A stretch of 42,450 nt of DNA from an uncultured Oscillatoriales cyanobacterium (GTDB taxonomy: Bacteria; Cyanobacteriota; Cyanobacteriia; Cyanobacteriales; Microcoleaceae), in NCBI GenBank assembly GCA_903893625.1, contig CAITND010000094.1, forward strand, positions 1 through 42,450, read 5' to 3'. Position numbers and translations under genes: made by a program. The notes beneath the pieces are model-generated. The model was given only the letters and a program-made list of their open reading frames with translations. It was not told the origin of the DNA and ran no database searches. This document shows positions 8,443 to 40,776 of this stretch, in pieces; positions within the stretch are counted from its first letter, which is position 1; the number at the start of each line of letters is the position of its first letter.

Positions 8443-9876
8443 ATGGATTGTAATTCAAACCATAGTATCTTTTTGCGAGCGAATGGCTCCTTGGCCTGTT
8501 GGGACGATTATGGGAGTTTATTAACTCTACAACCCTTTGAAAGCGTTGTTGATTATGGGCAAGATGTTTATTTGGGGAAGACTTTTCAACAGATCAGAAA
8601 TAAACTTTCTGAAAATGAAATGCCGTTTCCTGAGTTTTGTACCCAATGTTATTGTCTCGCCAAACATCTGCAATACAACTCCTCCTTTTCGGAGAATAAA
8701 GAAATCCTTGTCTTCCAGGTCGAGCCGACCATTCGGTGTACCCTGGTATGTCCCGGTTGCATGACTCCTGGGGAACGAAAAACCCGAATATCGCCTCCCT
8801 ATGACTTGGATATTGCCGTCTTGGAAAAAATTCTGTGCGACCTACAACGCCAGCACATTCACATTCAGACGATTGATTTTCAAGGACACGGTGAACCTTT
8901 ATTGAATAAGAATCTTTGCCAAATGATTCAACTGGCTAAACAGTTGTTTCCAACGACAAGAATCACAATGTGTACTAATGCTCATGGTTTTTATCAGCCA
9001 GAATATGTGTCTTCTGGACTGGATGAGATCATCTTTGCGATCGATGGAATTGATCAGCCATCATATCTCCCTTATCGTCAGAATGGAGACTTCCAAAAAG
9101 CCTTTAAATTTATGAAAGATTTTGCGAGTGATGCTCGTCAGCAACAGAAACCGATTAAAACAATTTGGAAGTATATTTTATTTTCCCATAATGATACTCC
9201 TGAGCAATTGCGACTTGCTCAAGAATTAGCAAAAGAGGCTGGAGTAACGGATTTATTATTTATAATTACTCAATTAGGCCCGAAATCATCACGAATATTT
9301 GATGCGGAACAAATTCCAATGATTGATAATGGAGTAACTGTCTCTGTGTGGAACTATTTGGTAGATCTTCAGAGTATTCAGCAAAGCATAGATGAGGCGA
9401 GAAATTGGTGTGACAAGCAAGAATATGCAAAAGCAGAGGATTGTTTACAATACAGTGCAATGATGATACATCGCCGATTTCGTTATAATACAGAAGAGAC
9501 TCTTATTCCTGAAGCCTATCAAGAAGCTATTTATGAATTAGTTGATGTTCATGAACGCTTCAGCAAACATTGCGGGGAAAATAAAATATCAAAATTGCAT
9601 AGGGTCAATTTTCTTTTTAATCAAGCCATACGATCAAAATTACAAGCCCAAAATGCCGTGATCCAGCAGCAAGCCCAGGAGATTCAGCAACAAGCCCAGG
9701 AGATTCAACAACAAGCTCAGGAGATTCAACAGCAAGCTCAAATCATTGATAGGATAGAGAATAGCCTGTCATGGAAAATCACGACACCGATGAGAAGCAT
9801 CCGCAACCATCCTGATGTTGTTTATTGTTTAAAACATCTGCAAAAATTTATAACTGTCAAAACTGATTTAAAATAA
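8443..9876 (+). CDS. Radical SAM protein with N-terminal cysteine cluster and C-terminal coiled coil
   Basis: The 477-aa product has the radical SAM CxxxCxxC motif at Cys99, Cys103 and Cys106 (RCTLVCPGC), followed by IDFQGHGEPLLNKN, the usual GGE-like strand for SAM binding. Before this core lie further cysteines at 3, 19, 66, 69 and 71, which resemble a SPASM-type auxiliary cluster domain; that domain usually follows the core rather than precedes it. The C-terminus has four 7-residue IQQQAQE repeats (about residues 407-434), predicted coiled coil, then SLSWKITTPMRSIRNH. That ending resembles tails of cyanobacterial glycosyltransferases in polysaccharide clusters. The substrate is unknown; a glycan or peptide modification is possible. 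An AAGGA run near 8430 supports the ATG. The stop overlaps the convergent Crp gene by 20 bp. Confidence 0.8.
   Translation: MDCNSNHSIFLRANGSLACWDDYGSLLTLQPFESVVDYGQDVYLGKTFQQIRNKLSENEMPFPEFCTQCYCLAKHLQYNSSFSENKEILVFQVEPTIRCTLVCPGCMTPGERKTRISPPYDLDIAVLEKILCDLQRQHIHIQTIDFQGHGEPLLNKNLCQMIQLAKQLFPTTRITMCTNAHGFYQPEYVSSGLDEIIFAIDGIDQPSYLPYRQNGDFQKAFKFMKDFASDARQQQKPIKTIWKYILFSHNDTPEQLRLAQELAKEAGVTDLLFIITQLGPKSSRIFDAEQIPMIDNGVTVSVWNYLVDLQSIQQSIDEARNWCDKQEYAKAEDCLQYSAMMIHRRFRYNTEETLIPEAYQEAIYELVDVHERFSKHCGENKISKLHRVNFLFNQAIRSKLQAQNAVIQQQAQEIQQQAQEIQQQAQEIQQQAQIIDRIENSLSWKITTPMRSIRNHPDVVYCLKHLQKFITVKTDLK
9661..9744 (+). repeat. Four 21-bp in-frame repeats encoding IQQQAQE heptads
   Basis: Four adjacent 21-bp units start at 9661, 9682, 9703 and 9724 and differ only at synonymous or single positions; the last ends in AAATC. 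They encode consecutive heptads of a coiled coil in the radical SAM protein. The unit length of 21 bp preserves both frame and heptad register if copies are gained or lost. Confidence 0.85.
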
Positions 9877-10429
9877 TACAATGACGACCCGGACGTTGAA
9901 TTAATCCATCTTGTTCCAGCTTAATCATCATACGAGTGACACTCACTCTTGTTGTACCAATGACATCAGAAATATCAGCATGGGTCAGACGTAAATCGAT
10001 CAATAATCCTTCCGGTGTCAACCGACCAAATTTTTTCGCCAGCCATTTTAAACAATTCAATAAACGTTGTTCTGTTCGTTGGGTATGGAGAATGCTTTGC
10101 AGTTCTTCCGTTTGGCGAAGATGGATTAAAATTGCATCCGTATAATTTGACCAATCTGCTGAAGGGATGAGACTGACTTCAACGCGGGTAACAGATTCAA
10201 TTTGATATGCTTCCAGTTGGGTTAAGGGTTTACCGATAACATCGTTGTGTCCCCAATATCCTAAACTAATCAAGGTTCCATCTTCTGTCCAGGTGAGGGT
10301 GCGAACAACACCCCGTTCAATTTTCCACAAGGCATTAGACCAAAGGGGAATTTGTTCACGGGGGTTAAATGTACGGAATTTCGCAGCTAATGGAAGACTA
10401 ACAAGGGTTGGAATACTCACAGGAAGCAT
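9857..10429 (-). CDS. Crp/Fnr-family transcriptional regulator
   Basis: This 190-aa protein has a shortened cyclic-nucleotide-binding-like beta domain (about residues 20-100) and a C-terminal Crp-type winged helix. The recognition region reads LTHADISDVIGTTRVSVTRMMIKLEQDGLI (about 149-178), closely matching the HTH_crp pattern shared with NtcA-type regulators. The length is short compared with the roughly 220 aa of NtcA, and I see no clear cAMP-binding RxSE motif, so the effector is unknown. It overlaps the 3' end of the radical SAM gene by 20 bp in convergent orientation. Its target could include the divergent PadR-RND genes, which start 170 bp away. Confidence 0.85.
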   Translation of the reverse strand: MLPVSIPTLVSLPLAAKFRTFNPREQIPLWSNALWKIERGVVRTLTWTEDGTLISLGYWGHNDVIGKPLTQLEAYQIESVTRVEVSLIPSADWSNYTDAILIHLRQTEELQSILHTQRTEQRLLNCLKWLAKKFGRLTPEGLLIDLRLTHADISDVIGTTRVSVTRMMIKLEQDGLIQRPGRHCIILNQF

Positions 10430-19824: not shown

Positions 19825-20152
19825 ATCTCAAGAATTCCTGTTAAATTTGCTTCTATTGTGTCATTTTTGTTAACCTGAGAGTTATTTTAACAGAAATTAT
19901 GATCTTTAAAAAATATTTTTTTAAAGATCATAATAGGTTAATTCCATTCGCTATTTCTGTTTGGCTATATTTAAGACGAAAATTTAGTATTATGATGGTA
20001 TGGTAATCCCTAACAATTGAAATCAATAGACTTCTGGGCTAAAATGTAACCTATAATATTTCTGCATCTAGTCTGTTTTACCTGATCGCAGGCTATAATT
20101 ATAATAAATATTAGGGTAATGCCTAACAATTGAAATCAGAGGTAGATTTATT
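19825..20152. promoter_or_regulatory. AT-rich divergent intergenic region with long hairpin and direct repeats
   Basis: An 18-bp perfect stem with a 3-base TAT loop spans 19896-19934 (arms beginning ATTATGATCTTTAAA and ending TTTAAAGATCATAAT). A 24-bp direct repeat, GGTAATNCCTAACAATTGAA plus ATCA, occurs at 20002-20025 and 20115-20138 with one mismatch. TATAAT-like hexamers lie at about 20051 and 20093. The region separates the ABC importer operon (minus) from the sORF-ParA-HEPN operon (plus) and should hold both promoters. Confidence 0.6.
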
Positions 20153-20284
20153 GTGAAATTTCAAGTAATTTTCACAGTAGATGTAGATCTGATCGCATTC
20201 CGATTTAGTAGTTTAAAACCAATGGTTGGTTTAGCAGAATTATCCGGTATACTTTATGGAGAAGGCAAAAGAGGAAGTTTATGA
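20153..20284 (+). CDS. Small 43-aa ORF coupled to ParA (unknown)
   Basis: A GTG at 20153 opens 43 codons (first residues KFQVIFTVDVDLIAFRF, last YGEGKRGSL) ending in a TGA that overlaps the ParA ATG as ATGA. An AGAGGT run at 20138-20143 lies at a good distance before the GTG. The ATGA overlap and ribosome-binding site argue that it is translated and coupled to ParA. No homologue is recognised; the product has no membrane segment. It could be a small regulator or antitoxin-like partner, or only a leader peptide. Confidence 0.45.
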   Translation: MKFQVIFTVDVDLIAFRFSSLKPMVGLAELSGILYGEGKRGSL

Positions 20285-21312
20285 GTAAGAGAATAGTTGC
20301 TTTTAATCATAAGGGTGGAGTCAGTAAAACAACTTCTATATACAATATTGGATGGATGTTGTCAAGAAACTACAAAGTTTTAGTTGTAGATGCTGATCCG
20401 CAGTGTAATTTATCAAATTTAATTTTAGGCGATGATTTTGAGAAATATTATTTTGAAGATTCTACGAAGCACCACAATATTAAAGATGGAGTTCAGCCTG
20501 CTTTTGCTGGAAAACCATTTCCCATTCAAGCTGTAGACTGTTTTTCACCAGCAAGGGCTCCATCTTTGTATCTACTTGCGGGACACGCTAACTTATCAGA
20601 ATATGATGCTGCATTAACATTTGCTCAAACATCCAACAATGCTATAACAACGCTGCAAAATTTACCTGGGGCATTTTCTGAGCTAATTAAAGTTACTGAA
20701 AATAAGTATTCCATTGACTATACCTTAATAGATTTGAACCCAGGTCTAAGTGCAATTAACCAAAATTTGTTTTTGTCGTCTCATGCCTTTATAGTGCCTA
20801 CTAACCCAGATCCATTTTCATTGATGGCGATAAATGCTTTAAAAAATATCTTGCCAAAGTGGGTTTTGTGGAAAAAAAATTCTGTTGAACTATTTGCTGA
20901 TTCTGCCTATCCATTACTAGAAGGAGAACCTAAATTTGTTGGAACTTTAATTCAGCGATTCAATATTCATAAAGGGCGGGCTGCAAAGCCTTATAGAGAT
21001 AACATTACAGAAATTAAAGCTCTGATAAGTGGAGAGTTTTTTGAGTCTATTTCTAGGGTAGGAATGACACTAAATTCAGAACAGTACACACAGGATTTTA
21101 TTGAAAGTGGTTATTGCCTTGGTGAAATACAAGATTTTCAGGGTTTGTTACCAAAGTCATATCAAGCTGGGGTGCCTGTTTTTGATTTATTGGATACCGA
21201 AATAGGTGAGGCTGGTCTTGTTCTAGGGCAGATGATAAAGAACAGAAATGTTTTTGAAGAAAGATTTCAATTGCTAACTAATAAATTAATTGAATTATTA
21301 CAATATGCGTAG
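20281..21312 (+). CDS. ParA/MinD-like ATPase in a HEPN operon
   Basis: This 343-aa P-loop protein has a deviant Walker A (KGGVSKTT, residues 11-18), the Walker A' region VLVVDADPQCNLSNLI and a Walker B-like YTLIDLNPGLS near residue 155. It is longer than a minimal ParA, with a C-terminal region of about 100 residues of unknown role. No ParB and no obvious parS sites are seen, so plasmid or chromosome partition is unlikely. The ATG is preceded by AGAGGAAG. Its stop overlaps the HEPN gene start (ATGCGTAG), so the two proteins are probably made in balanced amounts and act together. Confidence 0.85.
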   Translation: MSKRIVAFNHKGGVSKTTSIYNIGWMLSRNYKVLVVDADPQCNLSNLILGDDFEKYYFEDSTKHHNIKDGVQPAFAGKPFPIQAVDCFSPARAPSLYLLAGHANLSEYDAALTFAQTSNNAITTLQNLPGAFSELIKVTENKYSIDYTLIDLNPGLSAINQNLFLSSHAFIVPTNPDPFSLMAINALKNILPKWVLWKKNSVELFADSAYPLLEGEPKFVGTLIQRFNIHKGRAAKPYRDNITEIKALISGEFFESISRVGMTLNSEQYTQDFIESGYCLGEIQDFQGLLPKSYQAGVPVFDLLDTEIGEAGLVLGQMIKNRNVFEERFQLLTNKLIELLQYA

Positions 21313-21922
21313 TGCATTAACACTCTTTAAGAAGAATATGCAAGAGGCGAAGGATCTAACTTCTCTTTATGAGTATCTAGAAAGCAATATAAAATCACCA
21401 CTTTCATTTGATGATTTATTACGATCTCAAATAGTCTACTCTGTAAGTGCTTTTGATAAACTTATCCATGATGTCATTCGTATAGGAATGGTGCAAATTT
21501 TCATGGGTCAAAGAAACCCAACGCCGCAATATCTTGCAGAATCAATATCAATATCGGCTTATAATGAACTGATTAATGCAACAGTTCCTCCAAAAGAATA
21601 TATATTTGAGCAAGCAATTATCAGAAAGCTGAAGATTATTGCCTATCAAGATCCTAAAAAAGTAGCTGAAGGATTAAGCTATATATGGGACGAAAAGCAA
21701 AAATGGCAAAAAATTGCTATGAAAATGGCAATGAATGATAAAACTGCTAAAACTACATTAAAATTGATTGTAGACAGAAGAAATGTAATTGTTCATGAAG
21801 CTGATATTGATCCTTTAACAAACAAAAAATATTCAATTAGTAAAAGTGAATGTCAATCTATAACAGACTTTCTTTTTAAATGTGGAGAAGAAATAGTCGG
21901 TTTGGTTAATTTAACCAGCTAA
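21305..21922 (+). CDS. HEPN (RiboL-PSP-like) putative ribonuclease
   Basis: The all-helical ~205-aa protein ends with the HEPN active-site signature in VDRRNVIVHEADID (about residues 165-178), an RNxxxH motif seen in RiboL-PSP and similar HEPN nucleases that cut RNA in defence and toxin-antitoxin systems. The N-terminal half (LSFDDLLRSQIVYSVSAFDKLIHDVIRIGM) also matches the RiboL-PSP pattern. The ATG at 21305 overlaps the ParA stop by eight bases; an upstream TTG at 21290 would add five residues. A ParA-regulated RNase is the simplest reading, but the pair is not one I can name. Confidence 0.75.
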   Translation: MRSALTLFKKNMQEAKDLTSLYEYLESNIKSPLSFDDLLRSQIVYSVSAFDKLIHDVIRIGMVQIFMGQRNPTPQYLAESISISAYNELINATVPPKEYIFEQAIIRKLKIIAYQDPKKVAEGLSYIWDEKQKWQKIAMKMAMNDKTAKTTLKLIVDRRNVIVHEADIDPLTNKKYSISKSECQSITDFLFKCGEEIVGLVNLTS

Positions 21923-22078: not shown

Positions 22079-22200
22079 ATGGCAATAACAAAATTAACGA
22101 ATTCTGGACAAGTTGCAATTCCTTTATAAATTATACAAGGGCTTAAACTGCAACCTGGCGACTAGATTGATTTGGCGATCGCTTATTCTTCTAAATCAGA
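22079..22200 (+). pseudogene. AbrB/MazE-type antitoxin remnant
   Basis: Read from ATG 22079, the frame gives AITKLTNSGQVAIPL, stop, IIQGLKLQPGD, stop, IDLAIAYSS. This is the N-terminal swapped-hairpin pattern of AbrB/MazE antitoxins (GQVxIPxxIxxxLxLxxGD) broken by stops at 22127 and 22163. The remnant is dead unless stops are read through. It shows that a toxin-antitoxin module once sat between the HEPN operon and the restriction remnant. Confidence 0.6.
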
Positions 22201-22220: not shown

Positions 22221-22664
22221 CTAAAGACAACTGTGTTCTCTTAAAATCATTCTAGCTTTTTTAAAGTTATCTTTCATTCGATTAATTTGATCGGAATTAC
22301 CCCAGCTTATTCCTGATTTAATCCCAACGATATAATAAATTCCTTCTCTCTCAAATTCCAAATCAACACTATTAAGAGTTGATTTGACTCCTCGGTATAG
22401 TGTTTCTGAGATACAGATAGCTAAATCTTTTAGTAATAAGTTTAGAAAGATTTCTCCTTGGGTTAATAAGAATGAATCAATTAAATATTTAGCAAATTCG
22501 TTGACTGTCTGATTTTTTGCATTTCTCCATAAATAAGGATTTTTGTTAATTAGAAGATCATCAATTGTTAACTGGCTTAGTTTTTTAATTTGTTGAGGAT
22601 AGTAAGAATCTATAAAATTATTGATCATATAATTAATATCAACATTACAATTATATATTTTCAT
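22221..22664 (-). pseudogene. Truncated PmeII-like type II restriction endonuclease
   Basis: The 147-aa product matches the N-terminal half of PmeII-family restriction enzymes: KNPYLWRNAKNQTVNEFAKY, then the PD-(D/E)xK core SVDLEFEREGIYYIVGIKSG and WGNSDQINRMKDNFKKAR. The known family is roughly 250-270 aa, so about the C-terminal 40% is missing after ILRE. No methyltransferase is adjacent. It is probably an inactive remnant, though the catalytic residues survive. Confidence 0.65.
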
Positions 22665-31566: not shown

Positions 31567-32109
31567 TTAACTCAGTAATCTTTCAACAGATATCTCAATC
31601 TCAGGAAAAGCTAAGGGGGTAATCATTCCTTGATTAATAATTTGTTGACTCAAATAAGTATTATTTTCAGGATTTCTAAATACGATTAATTGTTTTTGGG
31701 ATAAATCTAAAACCCAATATTCTTGAATGTTGGCTTGAGCGTAAATTGATAATTTTAATTCTAAATCTTTTTTTAAACTACTTTTAGCCACTTCAATGAT
31801 CCAAAAAATATCCTCAGCATAGGGATGATGATTTTTATAGGTTGACTTGGGTAGTCGGACAATAGCAATATCCGGTTCAGGCTCAGAATCCGAAAGGGTA
31901 ACAGGGCCATTAAAACGAACATGAGCTTTACTTGCTAACAATGTTTGTAAGTATTGTGTACCTTCCTCAGCCGTATAATAATGAATCGGAGTTTCTGGAC
32001 TCATTTCAACGATTTCACCTACTAATAATTCAACTTTGCGATCGCACAAAATCCCAGCATTAATCATCTGGTGATAATCCTCGATAGACCATTTTGCTAA
32101 CATCTTCAT
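31567..32109 (-). CDS. Uma2-family putative endonuclease (DUF820), tandem copy A
   Basis: This 180-aa member of the Uma2 family opens KMLAKWSIEDYHQMINAGILCDRKVELLVGEIVEMSPE and has the acidic PEPDIAIVRLP strand and the IFWIIEVAKSSLKKDLELKLSIYAQA core with E and K of the PD-(D/E)xK fold. The copy at 32271-32813 is about 85-90% identical by eye. Function unknown. It belongs to a different Uma2 subgroup from the pair at the left edge of the window. Confidence 0.88.
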   Translation of the reverse strand: MKMLAKWSIEDYHQMINAGILCDRKVELLVGEIVEMSPETPIHYYTAEEGTQYLQTLLASKAHVRFNGPVTLSDSEPEPDIAIVRLPKSTYKNHHPYAEDIFWIIEVAKSSLKKDLELKLSIYAQANIQEYWVLDLSQKQLIVFRNPENNTYLSQQIINQGMITPLAFPEIEISVERLLS

Positions 32110-32161
32110 GGCCGAATTACCTGTTTTTATTATAGAAAGGATATTATAACAAAAATTTAGA

Positions 32162-32193
32162 GCGATGCCGACAGGCGGCGGCTACGCCATCGC
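32162..32193. repeat. Interspersed palindromic repeat
   Basis: GCGATG at 32162-32167 and CATCGC at 32188-32193 flank a GC-rich centre (CCGACAGGCGGCGGCTACGC). The sequence is of the GC-rich palindromic repeat type common in filamentous cyanobacteria. It lies between the two Uma2 copies. Confidence 0.6.
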
Positions 32194-32270
32194 ATGATTC
32201 AACAACAGGAGGGTAATTCATGATCAAAACAAAACAGATCTGTAATTAAATATGAGATTTTCCTCTTTTT

Positions 32271-32813
32271 TTAATTTAACAGTCTTTCAACGGATATCTC
32301 AATATCAGAAAAAGCTAAAGGAATAATCATTCCTTGATTAATAATTTGTTGACTCAAATAAATATTATTTTCAGGATTTCTAAATACGATTAATTGTTTT
32401 TGGGATAAATCTAAAACCCAATATTCCTTAATTCTAGCTTGAGCATAAATTGATAATTTTAATTCTAAATCTTTCTTTAAACTACTTTTAGCCACTTCAA
32501 TGATCCAAAAAATATCTTCAGCATAGGGATGATGATCTTGATAAGTTGACTCTGGTAGTCGGACAATAGCAATATCCGGTTCAGGTTCAGACTCGGAAAG
32601 GGTAATGGGCCCATTAAAACGAATATCGGCTTTACCCGTTAACAAGGTTTCTAAGTATTTTGTACCTTGCTTGGCAGTATAATAATGAATAGGACTTTCT
32701 GGACTCATTTCAACGATTTCACCTACTAATAGTTCAACTTTGCGATCGCACAAAATCCCAGCATTAATCATCTGGTGATAATCCTCTACAGACCATTTTG
32801 CTAACGTTTTCAT
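32271..32813 (-). CDS. Uma2-family putative endonuclease (DUF820), tandem copy B
   Basis: This 180-aa protein is nearly identical to copy A at an offset of 704 bp and shares the same motifs (KTLAKWSVEDYHQM, PEPDIAIVRLP, IIEVAKSSLKKDLELKLSIYAQA). Differences are mostly in residues 75-95 and at the C-terminus. It stands 38 bp from the DUF29 gene. A 40-bp piece of a closely related gene reappears at 34296-34338. Confidence 0.88.
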   Translation of the reverse strand: MKTLAKWSVEDYHQMINAGILCDRKVELLVGEIVEMSPESPIHYYTAKQGTKYLETLLTGKADIRFNGPITLSESEPEPDIAIVRLPESTYQDHHPYAEDIFWIIEVAKSSLKKDLELKLSIYAQARIKEYWVLDLSQKQLIVFRNPENNIYLSQQIINQGMIIPLAFSDIEISVERLLN

Positions 32814-34359: not shown

Positions 34360-34950
34360 TTATTTTACTTCATCTATCCAGTCTTTAATTCGCTGTTCTA
34401 AATTCAACAAATCTTCTGGACAAAGTTGTCGTAGTCGTTTATAGTTTCCAGCAGCTTTTTCAGCCATAATTTTTCGACCCTCTCCTGGAGTTTCTAACAA
34501 ATTTTGTTGTTTAGCTAAGGGGATAAAATATCGTTCTTTTGGATGTTCTTCTTGACGGACTTCTTGCCATTTCCATTCCGATGATAAATCATATCCAGCT
34601 AACACCCATACCTCTATTTCCTGCCAAGCATTTTCCGCTAAAAGCAAACTCTGACGAGATGTTAAAATTTTTGCAGCTTCTTGTTCTAGTTTGTTTAACG
34701 CTTGTTTTCGTCCCTCTTTTCCATCACGGTCAACACATAATATAAATAAATCAGCTTTTCCGCGATACTGTTCAATAATAGCTAATATATTTTCAAGTTT
34801 TAAAGCTTCATTAACTCCACCTAATAGGGGATCTTGACAAACTTGAACCTGAGCTTTTGTTTTCCCTAAGTTTGACATCATTGCTTTAATAATGGGTTTA
34901 AGCATATATTGATCTTTACGGAAGTCTTCAGGAATAACTAAAACTTTCAT
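34360..34950 (-). CDS. TOPRIM-like protein paired with an AAA ATPase
   Basis: The 196-aa protein starts KVLVIPEDFRKDQYMLKPII and contains FILCVDRDGKEGR. The early acidic residue (PED) followed by a hydrophobic strand and DxD is the arrangement of TOPRIM domains, used by OLD-type nucleases for metal-dependent DNA cleavage. Its remaining regions (AENAWQEIEVWVLAGYDL, EHPKERYFIPLA) look like a conserved family often found beside an ATPase, which I cannot name with certainty. It is separated from the ATPase stop by three bases, so the two are one operon. A split OLD- or PARIS-like defence pair is the best guess. Confidence 0.6.
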   Translation of the reverse strand: MKVLVIPEDFRKDQYMLKPIIKAMMSNLGKTKAQVQVCQDPLLGGVNEALKLENILAIIEQYRGKADLFILCVDRDGKEGRKQALNKLEQEAAKILTSRQSLLLAENAWQEIEVWVLAGYDLSSEWKWQEVRQEEHPKERYFIPLAKQQNLLETPGEGRKIMAEKAAGNYKRLRQLCPEDLLNLEQRIKDWIDEVK

Positions 34951-34953
34951 AAA

Positions 34954-36282
34954 TTATTCCTCCTCCTGAGAAAATTCCATAATATTTTCTAACCATCCTG
35001 ACTCATGGAGACGGGCTAAACTTTGTTCTTTAATTAAAGTTTCTGTTTCTGGGGAGATATCAAAAATTCTTTTAATTTTGGCATCGGGTTGATTTTCTAA
35101 GCGATAAGTTAAAGACGTATTTTGTAAGGTCTCATAACTTAATAATCTTAGTAGTTGCGAGGAATGGGTTGTGGCAATAATTTGCAAGTTAGTTTGTTTA
35201 ACACGGGTTTCAAGTAATTCTATGAGAAGATGTAAACGGGTGGGATGAAGACCGTTATCTAATTCTTCCAAAAAATAACAACTAAAATTAGGTAAATCAT
35301 CAGATTCATTAAATAACGCTGCAATGATAGCTAAAAATCTTAAAGTTCCATCTGATGCACTAATAATCGGGATTTTTTGCCCATTCGCTTCTATTAATAC
35401 CAGTAAGATTTTACCCGTTATATCTGTAACAAATTCTAAATCCGTCGCATCCATTGGCGTTAATGCTTTTAACCATTCTAATACAGCAATTTTACGGTTT
35501 TGATTTTCACAAATTGCTTGTAATACTGAGGATAAGTTTTCTCCGCGATCTCCTAAAATATTTTGACCCGGGTTAGAGGGTCTTCGCATCGCATCAGGAA
35601 CTAAATCTAAGAATTTTAAACTACTTAATTCGTTGAAAGTATCATCAATACTCCAACCAATTTTATCTTTATCTATTATGTCATTCTTTTTTAAAATATT
35701 GTTTAGTGAGTTACTATCAGTAAAGGATTTATTGTTATTTTTTGAAAATTCTATTTCTTTTATATCTTCTGACTCAGAAAATACATAAAGTAACATTTTT
35801 GCAGAATTATTAGGTGATTCATTGACCTTAAAGATCAGATTTTTTTCCTTTGAACGTCCTAAATTATATAAACTTTCCTCTATAACTTTAGGCTGTTTCT
35901 CATTAATTCCTGGATTAATCTCTATACGATAGATTAATTCATATTCACCCACTCTTACCCTTGGCTTTAAGTAATCTTCTTTTTCATCTATTATAGGCAA
36001 ACTAAAAGTGACTTCTATAGCAAAAGTTGGAGAATTTTGAAATGTAATATTTTGTTTTCCTCCTCTAATACCTTCCCATTCTAAAAAACCTCCTTGTCCC
36101 CACTTTTCCCCTAATATTTCAGCTAAATTGTAACCTCGACTAATTCCATGTAAAAAACGTAAAGCGTCACCGATATTACTTTTACCTGTAGCATTAGTAC
36201 CCACTAAAATTGTAAAATCACCCAAGGTTAATTCGGCTTCTTTAAAATTTTTAAATCGTTCTAAACGTATTTTTTTTAGCAT
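34954..36282 (-). CDS. ABC-type/OLD-like AAA ATPase
   Basis: The ~442-aa protein (ATG 36282; a TTG at 36294 is less likely) is a RecF/OLD-type ATPase: MLKKIRLERFKNFKEAELTLGDFTILVGTNATGKS with Walker A GTNATGKS, signature SASDGTLRFLAI, Walker B YFLEELDNGLHP and switch IATTHSSQLL. No nuclease domain is fused, so catalysis is presumably supplied by the adjacent TOPRIM protein. The gene follows a shortened Phd gene by 23 bp in the same direction, which may put the pair under Phd autoregulation. Confidence 0.88.
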   Translation of the reverse strand: MLKKIRLERFKNFKEAELTLGDFTILVGTNATGKSNIGDALRFLHGISRGYNLAEILGEKWGQGGFLEWEGIRGGKQNITFQNSPTFAIEVTFSLPIIDEKEDYLKPRVRVGEYELIYRIEINPGINEKQPKVIEESLYNLGRSKEKNLIFKVNESPNNSAKMLLYVFSESEDIKEIEFSKNNNKSFTDSNSLNNILKKNDIIDKDKIGWSIDDTFNELSSLKFLDLVPDAMRRPSNPGQNILGDRGENLSSVLQAICENQNRKIAVLEWLKALTPMDATDLEFVTDITGKILLVLIEANGQKIPIISASDGTLRFLAIIAALFNESDDLPNFSCYFLEELDNGLHPTRLHLLIELLETRVKQTNLQIIATTHSSQLLRLLSYETLQNTSLTYRLENQPDAKIKRIFDISPETETLIKEQSLARLHESGWLENIMEFSQEEE

Positions 36283-36305
36283 ATAGCAAATCAATTTTAT
36301 ATTTA

Positions 36306-38584: not shown

Positions 38585-39562
38585 TTATTCATCAATAAGC
38601 CACCCACGCTCTATACCTTGTTCAATTCCACCAGTCCAGTCTCTTATTAGATGGGTGCGTATTTTATTAAATAGATGTTGAACAACAGTTGGGTTGATAG
38701 GATTTTTTATATATGTTTCTTCATATCTAAATTCTCGATCAGTATTTTTTTGTTGACGGAGTACATAAATTTGATCCACTTTATATTTACGAAGATTAAC
38801 ATCACGGGTTAGTTTAATCCATTCCATCAGAACCATATACAAACTATTAGGATTTCTGGCTTTTAAATCCTCTGCTGCTCTGGATGAACCTTCAAGCATC
38901 GCTTTATCAAGATAGGTTTTACATTCAATCACAACCACTGGAATATCAAAAAGATGTGTCTCTGCATTACCTGTAACTGTAACTTCTGAATAGCTTTCTG
39001 GTTCTTCTTGAACAATTGCCACCAATTCACCAGAGGTTTCATCTTGTTCTGGTGGGGTTGCTGCTTCAAAAGATGCTTGAATTGTTGCTCCAATCACAAA
39101 ATCATGATCTTTCTTCTCAATGCGTGCGTAAGGTCGCTTTAACATCTCCGAGTATTTAGGAGGAGCAAAGAAAATATCTTTGAAAGTATGAGATTTTCCA
39201 ATCAAAGCATTTGAGCCAAAATCTCTGGCTAAGTCTTTAAATAAATAGTAAACAAACTCCTCTAATACTGTAGAGTGAAGATTAGATCGAGAATCAAATT
39301 TTTCAGCATAATGTTGCTGGTCTAAAAAATCTTTATAATCTGAGAGAAGTTCTACCCTTTTAACAATAATTTCATTATCCTCGTCCTTTAGTATTGAGGT
39401 TGGCCCAATCAATTCGAGATTGGCTGAGTGCCATTGATCATACTTAGTTCTAATCTCCTTGAGAAATTTTTTACTCTCAACATCGTTGTATTTTTTACGA
39501 TTATTTTCTTTTTGTTCAAGATTGGAACCATGAACTAAAGGGTTTCTATCACTTGTGGGCAT
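38585..39562 (-). CDS. Bpu10I-family type II restriction endonuclease
   Basis: The 325-aa protein fits the Bpu10I family: IEKKDHDFVIGATI...FDIPVVVIECKTYLDKAMLEGSSRAAEDLKARNPNSLYMVLMEWIKL. IECKTYLDK gives the E-x-K of a PD-(D/E)xK active site, with the acidic DHD upstream. Bpu10I itself has two subunits and cuts an asymmetric site; only one endonuclease gene is present here, so a symmetric site as with DdeI is possible (inference). The start overlaps the methyltransferase gene by 28 bases. Confidence 0.82.
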   Translation of the reverse strand: MPTSDRNPLVHGSNLEQKENNRKKYNDVESKKFLKEIRTKYDQWHSANLELIGPTSILKDEDNEIIVKRVELLSDYKDFLDQQHYAEKFDSRSNLHSTVLEEFVYYLFKDLARDFGSNALIGKSHTFKDIFFAPPKYSEMLKRPYARIEKKDHDFVIGATIQASFEAATPPEQDETSGELVAIVQEEPESYSEVTVTGNAETHLFDIPVVVIECKTYLDKAMLEGSSRAAEDLKARNPNSLYMVLMEWIKLTRDVNLRKYKVDQIYVLRQQKNTDREFRYEETYIKNPINPTVVQHLFNKIRTHLIRDWTGGIEQGIERGWLIDE

Positions 39563-40776
39563 AGCTCTAATTTTTCTTTAAGATGCAGTGCAATTGCTTT
39601 AGCCAGTAACGGAGGAACAGCATTACCAATCTGATTATACTGACAAAGGAACTTTTCATCAAATCTTTGCTCACGGTGTAATAACTTGTGAGATACAACC
39701 GTCTTTTTTCCTAAAAAACGATAGGTATCAGGAAAAGATTGAATCCGCGCTCCTTCCCGTGCTGTTAAATTTCGGTGTTGGAAAGGGTGAATAAAATTAG
39801 CATAGAATGAAGCAGTTATTGTATGAGATGGTTTATACGGATACAAACGGCGATTATTTTGGTCATAACTTTTTCCCGATAACTCACCATTTCCGCTTCG
39901 ACGCCTTGCCCCATATTCTTTAGATACATCAGCACTTGATTCACCCCATTTAATTTGTTTAAAGCGTTCTACAAGTCTTTGAGAGTGATCCATTGCCACA
40001 TGATTGTAGAGAGTTTGACTACCCTTTCTTATCCAGTCCTGATAGTCATTTTGCGCTTCTAAAATATAAGGCTGTTCCTCCTGACCTTCACGGGCATTCA
40101 CAGGTGGTAAATCTGATATAGCATCCCATAGAGTGAAAGCAGGAAATAACTGCTCATGGTCTAATATGGATAATTGAAAATGATTAAAATTTAATAAGCC
40201 TAAAGAATAGCGTTTAGGAGGAGACCCAATTTTTTGCCCGGTATTATTTCCAACAATAAAAACACGCTCTCTTATTTGAGGAACACCATATCCAGCCGCA
40301 TTTAATAACCAAACTTCAACAAAATACCCCAATTCTTCAAAAGTATTTTTTATAATATCTATAACCTTTATTCCATCAACATTTTTCCGTGAGAGTAAGC
40401 CTTTAACATTTTCCATGACAAAAGCTTTAGGTTGCAGAAAACTAATCCATTGAGCGAAGTTAATAAATAAAGTATTTCTAGGGTCTTTAGGATCTTTTTT
40501 TGCTGGCCCAGCAATGCTAAAACCCTGACATGGAGGCCCACCAATAATAATATCAGGTTTAAAGATACAAATTTCTTTAACCTGACTTTCGGTGTTAAAA
40601 TCACGAATATCATACTGAATAACAGTCATATCAGGATGATTATAACGGAGTGTGTCACAAGCCCAAGCATCAATTTCCACTGATAACGGAATAGAGAAAC
40701 CTGCCATTTTGAACCCTAAACCAAACCCACCTGCACCAGCAAACAGATCAACAGCAATAGGTTGTGCTAATGTCAT
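39535..40776 (-). CDS. DNA (cytosine-5) methyltransferase
   Basis: The 413-aa C5 methyltransferase has motif I DLFAGAGGFGLGF, motif IV GGPPCQGFSIAGP with the catalytic cysteine, motif VI ENVKG, motif VIII RRLYPYKPSHTITAS and motif X QIGNAVPPLLAKAIA. A variable target-recognition region lies between VIII and IX. It is upstream of, and overlaps, the Bpu10I-like endonuclease, so the two form a type II restriction-modification system and the methyltransferase protects the host genome. Confidence 0.95.
   Translation of the reverse strand: MTLAQPIAVDLFAGAGGFGLGFKMAGFSIPLSVEIDAWACDTLRYNHPDMTVIQYDIRDFNTESQVKEICIFKPDIIIGGPPCQGFSIAGPAKKDPKDPRNTLFINFAQWISFLQPKAFVMENVKGLLSRKNVDGIKVIDIIKNTFEELGYFVEVWLLNAAGYGVPQIRERVFIVGNNTGQKIGSPPKRYSLGLLNFNHFQLSILDHEQLFPAFTLWDAISDLPPVNAREGQEEQPYILEAQNDYQDWIRKGSQTLYNHVAMDHSQRLVERFKQIKWGESSADVSKEYGARRRSGNGELSGKSYDQNNRRLYPYKPSHTITASFYANFIHPFQHRNLTAREGARIQSFPDTYRFLGKKTVVSHKLLHREQRFDEKFLCQYNQIGNAVPPLLAKAIALHLKEKLELCPQVIETL

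Follow-up and report, generated by a model that had tools for sequence, protein, structure and literature searches.

Pairs of a HEPN protein and a ParA-type ATPase have already been proposed to act as toxin-antitoxin systems. Anantharaman et al. (2013; PMC3710099) described, as a less common dyad, a gene for a HEPN protein of the MAE_18760 family together with a gene for a ParA/Soj-like ATPase. There the ATPase is postulated to be the antitoxin and the HEPN protein the RNase toxin, phosphorylation is also considered as the mode of action of ParA, and a table places the RiboL-PSP family of HEPN proteins in an operon with ParB. An earlier note on the DNA studied here had described a ParA-type switch controlling a HEPN RNase as a system that it could not name; in view of the 2013 proposal this does not hold. 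Within the open-licence full-text literature, no later test of the pair was found; HEPN with Soj, and MAE_18760, led to PMC3710099 alone, and HEPN with AAA_31 led to no paper. The retrieved passages of PMC2701414, PMC7159879, PMC7549136, PMC10675462, PMC11341870, PMC6813254 and PMC5512222 hold nothing on the pair, and those of the DefensePredictor paper (PMC13092281) contain HEPN in the main text and lack the word ParA.

The window, by which we mean the whole analysed stretch of 42,450 nucleotides from an uncultured Oscillatoriales cyanobacterium, carries such a pair on its forward strand. The first gene (20281-21312, +) encodes a ParA/Soj-like ATPase of 343 aa, the proposed antitoxin or regulator, and the second (21305-21922, +) a HEPN protein of 205 aa counted from the ATG at 21305, the proposed RNase toxin; the two frames overlap at ATGCGTAG (21305-21312). 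As the earlier note had read from the letters, the ATPase has the deviant Walker A of the ParA/MinD type (KGGVSKTT; Pfam match AAA_31, E 1.8e-23), its fold and Walker motifs being those of Soj/ParA, and its partner bears the R-N-x3-H active site of HEPN proteins, which is kept among relatives and reads RNVIVHEAD here. The latter protein matches HEPN_RiboL-PSP (PF18735) with an E-value of 2.8e-13 and 50.6 bits against a curated cut-off of 28.4. The ATPase shares its fold and deviant Walker A with ParA/Soj and MinD, but it is longer, has the signature FNHKGGVSKT and is partnered by a HEPN protein instead of ParB. In the MNT-HEPN (MntA-HepT) system the partner is a minimal nucleotidyltransferase, whereas here it is a P-loop ATPase of the ParA type (AAA_31); the model of the window HEPN resembles the MNT-HEPN toxins in fold. 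A second, diverged pair exists in the same genome, its ParA 38% identical and its HEPN 33-37% identical over two stretches.

The likeness to the 2013 dyad is that in both the window and PMC3710099 a ParA/Soj-like ATPase gene adjoins the gene of a HEPN protein whose RNase motif is active. The difference lies in the HEPN family, MAE_18760 there and RiboL-PSP (PF18735) by Pfam here. The window HEPN gave no match to PF18737 (MAE_28990/MAE_18760-like) at E up to 1, and the paralogue L002 matches both PF18735 and PF18737, the latter below its cut-off (24.7 of 26.8 bits). PF18737 has matches in 57/120 genomes of the window's order, and none of the 30 best loci had a ParA of the window type within the approximately 1.5 kb examined on each side. 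Therefore, either the window HEPN falls under the family assignment of 2013, or there are dyads of this kind whose HEPN belongs to a second family.

We next consider the surroundings of the pair, which differ from the three linked frames described in the earlier note. A short ORF (20153-20284, +) is indeed joined to the ParA frame by ATGA (20281-20284), and the coordinates and both overlaps stand; the three-gene operon does not. Window positions 20112-20182 match DNA of the same-genus genome G294 at 91.5% over 71 bp (E 4.6e-24), the match running up to and into a hicB gene, so that the first ~30 nt of the short ORF are homologous to hicB, to about position 20182. From this match we conclude that the short ORF is a truncated 5′ stub of hicB, the first codons of a lost antitoxin gene running into other DNA until the ParA start codon. 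It has no family match and no relative at E below 2 (tblastn) among the other loci compared, and was therefore rejected as an operon gene. In G294, an assembly that is 73% complete, the same site holds an intact pair of HicB (PF15919, E 1.1e-8) and HicA (PF07927, E 1.5e-16). The ParA-HEPN pair thus stands where a relative of the same genus has the toxin-antitoxin genes HicB-HicA, which it may have replaced either directly or once they had decayed. In two further genomes of the genus, G255 and G295, the site is empty: the segment 19971-22176 is missing and 21 bp lie between the counterparts of 19970 and 22177.

Two copies of a 27-nt direct repeat lie upstream of the pair (19999-20025 and 20112-20138, both +), 93% identical to each other, separated by 86 bp, the second adjoining the start of the hicB stub; the repeat pair is perhaps a recent local duplication or insertion. 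Its 16-nt core, allowing up to 1 mismatch, occurs at only these two places in the whole genome, a single copy of the repeat precedes hicB in G294, and no exact 12-nt repeat was found in the 350 bp upstream of the pair in 11/12 relatives, the twelfth (L034) having an unrelated one. A conserved parS-like or operator element is therefore not supported. A local operator role is possible; promoter-like consensus hexamers at 20017-20045 and 20077-20105 lend it weak support, because the stretch is AT-rich and the scan returned 21 sites of this sort where 10.6 would be expected. Downstream, the earlier note had seen remains of a MazE-like antitoxin and of a restriction enzyme. The former is a stub of 16 codons and a stop (22079-22129, +), too short for a family search, which we take to be MazE/AbrB-like from a motif recognised by eye. 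The latter is borne out as a decayed EcoO109I-type endonuclease gene (22221-22664, -; PF14511 RE_EcoO109I, E 1.2e-36, profile positions 3-137 of 198), which lacks, among other differences, an internal ~340 bp present in G294 and G295; its counterpart in G294 covers profile positions 6-198 (E 9.6e-84).

The pair is not confined to this genus. Scanning genome_contigs (84,980 species) with a ParA profile gave 457 relatives, of which the best 80 were analysed. In 79 of these 80 loci a HEPN gene lies directly downstream of ParA, in a few cases shortened or broken, and the remaining locus (L107) runs out at a contig edge. Judged by record titles, these pairs belong to Cyanobacteria, Pseudomonadota, Bacteroidota, Bacillota, Spirochaetota, Chloroflexota, Acidobacteriota and other phyla. 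Starting from the HEPN protein instead, matches were found in 23/291 cyanobacterial genomes, all 23 with an adjacent ParA; a HEPN profile adds a 24th genome with a distant HEPN (L288) and no ParA in its locus. After removal of 10 duplicates and 8 short frames, 138 pairs left 120 full-length ones, a few near-identical phage copies included. All 120 have a motif of the RNxxxH type, and R159 and H164 of the HEPN protein are invariant in 78 sequences. KGGxxKT is present in 117/120 ParA proteins, the other three reading KGDVSKT, KGGVGST and HEAGLGKT. The HEPN start lies at or before the ParA stop in 94/120 pairs, up to 24 nt from it in 25 and 151 nt from it in one. Moreover, tree distances of ParA and HEPN correlate at 0.84, compared with a maximum of 0.12 in 1000 shuffles.

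In 56 diverse loci, no third gene keeps a constant position next to the pair. One candidate, the gene after HEPN in 6/20 cyanobacterial loci, was rejected since it is confined to one family, where it reflects synteny. In two cyanobacterial groups, one a family (f6) and one a genus (g23), the pair itself occupies a stable syntenic place. By gene position, what stands directly behind ParA in 79 of the best 80 loci is the HEPN gene and not ParB; to this extent the absence of a ParB partner noticed earlier holds in relatives. Neither of the outcomes named beforehand as refuting the pair, a ParA always accompanied by ParB or partition loci and an unconserved RNxxxH, was found. The ParA-HEPN pair is real and is strongly and widely conserved.

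Mobile elements also carry it. The record AY324828 (L200), entitled 'Pseudomonas phage Pf1, complete prophage' and 10,675 bp long, has a ParA at 8717-9748 that is 59.5% identical to that of the window; its annotation names a putative regulatory protein resembling Soj. Overlapping it is an unannotated HEPN frame (9741-10268) that keeps RNSIVHEAD and has a shorter C-terminus than the HEPN of phage WX-TY, which likewise carries the pair. According to PMC7379572, Pf1 measures 7.3 kb and Pf5 10.6 kb, and a ParA-domain gene is unique to Pf5; the word HEPN does not occur there. We therefore take AY324828 to be a filamentous Pseudomonas prophage of the Pf5 type, as its length fits and it has the ParA gene. 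PMC3820363 lists the Pf5 gene PA14_49030 as a putative regulatory protein with no homologue in Pf4, and the ParA-domain gene of Pf5, PA14_49030 and the AY324828 ParA are presumably one and the same gene. Plasmids of Burkholderia glumae carry the pair too; in one of the records the HEPN match spans no more than 63%.

What, then, might the pair do? We consider it probable that ParA and HEPN form a two-gene module of toxin-antitoxin character in which a HEPN RNase toxin is kept in check by ParA, depending on the nucleotide that ParA binds. This reading draws on the order of the genes and their overlap, on a site that holds HicBA in a relative, on the presence of the pair in mobile elements, on the RNase motif and on a HEPN fold resembling that of the MNT-HEPN toxins. 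The tight pairing, the correlated trees, the anti-phage systems with a PF18735 HEPN and the 2013 proposal likewise favour it. Other HEPN toxins work as dimers, and the HEPN protein would likewise be an RNase that acts as a dimer and arrests growth when free. The frame overlap would couple its translation to that of ParA, and ATP-bound ParA would bind and silence it, a nucleotide-dependent grip being the simplest mode. The RNase might be freed when the state of ParA is disturbed, be it through the ATP/ADP ratio, through the nucleoid DNA that ParA-type dimers bind, or through loss of ParA itself. The element that carries the pair would thereby be maintained, and phages might be warded off by abortive defence.

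The broken copies also count in favour of this reading. Among 126 classified pairs (two further pairs are cut by contig ends), a HEPN of fewer than 190 aa or without the motif stands beside an intact ParA in 8 independent cases, the Pf5 type being counted once for L122 and L200. The reverse, a broken ParA with an intact HEPN, was seen once (L073); a further flagged ParA (L115) has only an N-terminal extension. The asymmetry of 8 vs 1 (length-corrected binomial 0.002) is a biased figure, as most loci were fetched through a ParA match, which favours intact ParA, and several to many of the assemblies are drafts. One HEPN (L046) has lost its middle and active site in frame, and at least three of the eight cases (L076, L104 and the Pf5 type) still have the motif within a shortened frame.

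Other observations speak against a tight mutual need. In IMG/VR, HEPN is present in 21 of the 80 ParA loci analysed and absent in 59, and no more than 203 bp follow ParA in one of the latter (L167). A search by HEPN gave 38 viral loci; 20 have a ParA, and the 18 without it, like the distant cyanobacterial locus L288, hold more distant HEPNs. Therefore, in the wider families neither partner needs the other. Moreover, the stable syntenic place of the pair in the two cyanobacterial groups is less like a mobile addiction module. Six genes near viral HEPNs without ParA were scanned, giving three integrases, one HsdM methylase and two without a match. On one viral contig (L314, 773-3645) a PF18735 HEPN gene overlaps an HsdM methylase gene, a different neighbour for HEPNs of this family.

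A midpoint-rooted tree built from 170 ParA proteins places the 47 without HEPN in seven groups, one of which is the locus at a contig end (L107); the largest has 34 members and weak support (0.53). Gain or loss has probably occurred more than once, in one order or the other. In the P22-like phage SE1 (L202, 6001-7074) a ParA without HEPN adjoins the CI repressor gene, and genes for superinfection exclusion and antirestriction are close by. Further relatives of this kind occur among P22-like phage genes in Pantoea (L038, 7968-9077) and in E. coli (L037, 10001-11077), where the frame ahead of ParA is presumably repressor-like. Many phage contigs carry a ParA relative of this kind, possibly as a countermeasure.

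An anti-phage function of the pair is plausible on the evidence of sequence, and its strongest form is a system dedicated to that end: ParA would sense nucleoid damage, foreign DNA or a change in nucleotides and HEPN would be an abortive RNase effector, with no addiction module involved. We hold this reading to be credible, if short of probable. PF18735 HEPNs are listed in a table of PMC10952713 for anti-phage PD-T4-2, PD-T4-5, PD-T7-3 and ApeA, and the first three share the Pfam HEPN family of the window protein, with a ParA partner unmentioned in that passage. Carriage by the Pf5-type prophage and phage WX-TY, the patchy presence (23/291 cyanobacterial genomes) and the phage-borne ParA genes without HEPN, as potential countermeasures, would also fit. 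The earlier note had in addition inferred a defence setting, and locally this stands, the window carrying other defence-like genes at 34-41 kb. An AAA ATPase gene (34360-36294, -; best PADLOC match PDC-M07A, E 9.4e-65) is followed by a gene whose small product matches HEC-01B weakly, together a candidate defence pair. A DNA methyltransferase gene (38585-40776, -; PADLOC MTase_II, E 4.4e-132) overlaps a frame of 325 aa that has no match in PADLOC and may encode the restriction partner of the methyltransferase. Elsewhere in the window, two tandem duplications (3-1188 and 31567-32813) encode similar proteins that are presumably Uma2-like.

However, clustering in defence islands as a general feature is not supported. 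In a weak test with PADLOC and Pfam, which compared the 25 commonest families listed, defence families were no more frequent among 143 neighbour proteins from other genomes than among 120 controls. Of 194 neighbours called at 50 loci, 148 were taken and five of these set aside; the controls come from 124 called in 18 cyanobacterial stretches with four left out. Gene calls followed a longest-frame rule, and the controls are cyanobacterial while the neighbours come from many phyla. At E 1e-20 the most frequent of the listed PADLOC families reached 2/143 in neighbours (94 families) and 3/120 in controls (67 families), and at E 1e-5 Pfam gave 135 and 180 families, respectively. Single neighbours match Uma2, Csc2 (Cas7), a DNA methylase and a type I restriction domain; among the controls, DNA methylases, Uma2 and AAA_21 each occur twice. 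Moreover, PADLOC matches of the pair itself are weak and partial (ParA to PDC-M28B over 37 residues, HEPN to RTasHEPN with 18 bits), which also counts against a dedicated defence system. A more detailed scheme, which we regard as unlikely, would join these strands: an ATP- and nucleoid-bound ParA dimer would hold HEPN inactive, nucleoid destruction or nucleotide depletion caused by a phage would free the RNase, and the HEPN-less ParA proteins of P22-like and other phages would be antitoxin mimics that silence the HEPN of the host.

A ParA-type ATPase is normally a DNA-bound positioning motor. The pair could accordingly be a plasmid or phage partition or regulatory ATPase with HEPN as an accessory adaptor in place of ParB, in keeping with the Soj/ParA fold and Walker motifs and with the annotation of the AY324828 ParA and, in PMC3820363, of PA14_49030 as putative regulatory proteins. 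We find this improbable, as the pair also occurs in chromosomes among ordinary genes, no third gene keeps a fixed place and HEPN retains an RNase motif that an adaptor would not need. That HEPN is instead a non-toxic RNA-processing enzyme kept under ParA control for house-keeping purposes, as the stable synteny in two cyanobacterial groups might suggest, is slightly more improbable still in light of the patchy distribution, the phage and plasmid carriage and the place shared with a HicBA locus.

In summary, the ParA-HEPN pair is a real, widely conserved and under-studied module of a kind already proposed in 2013. It can now be put to the test, being present in many phyla, in a place where a relative has HicBA, and in a Pf5-type prophage whose HEPN gene is unannotated. 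If ParA does control HEPN, a partition-type ATPase would have been put to new use, as an antitoxin or as a sensor of infection, and the lone ParA genes borne by phages would gain a possible function.
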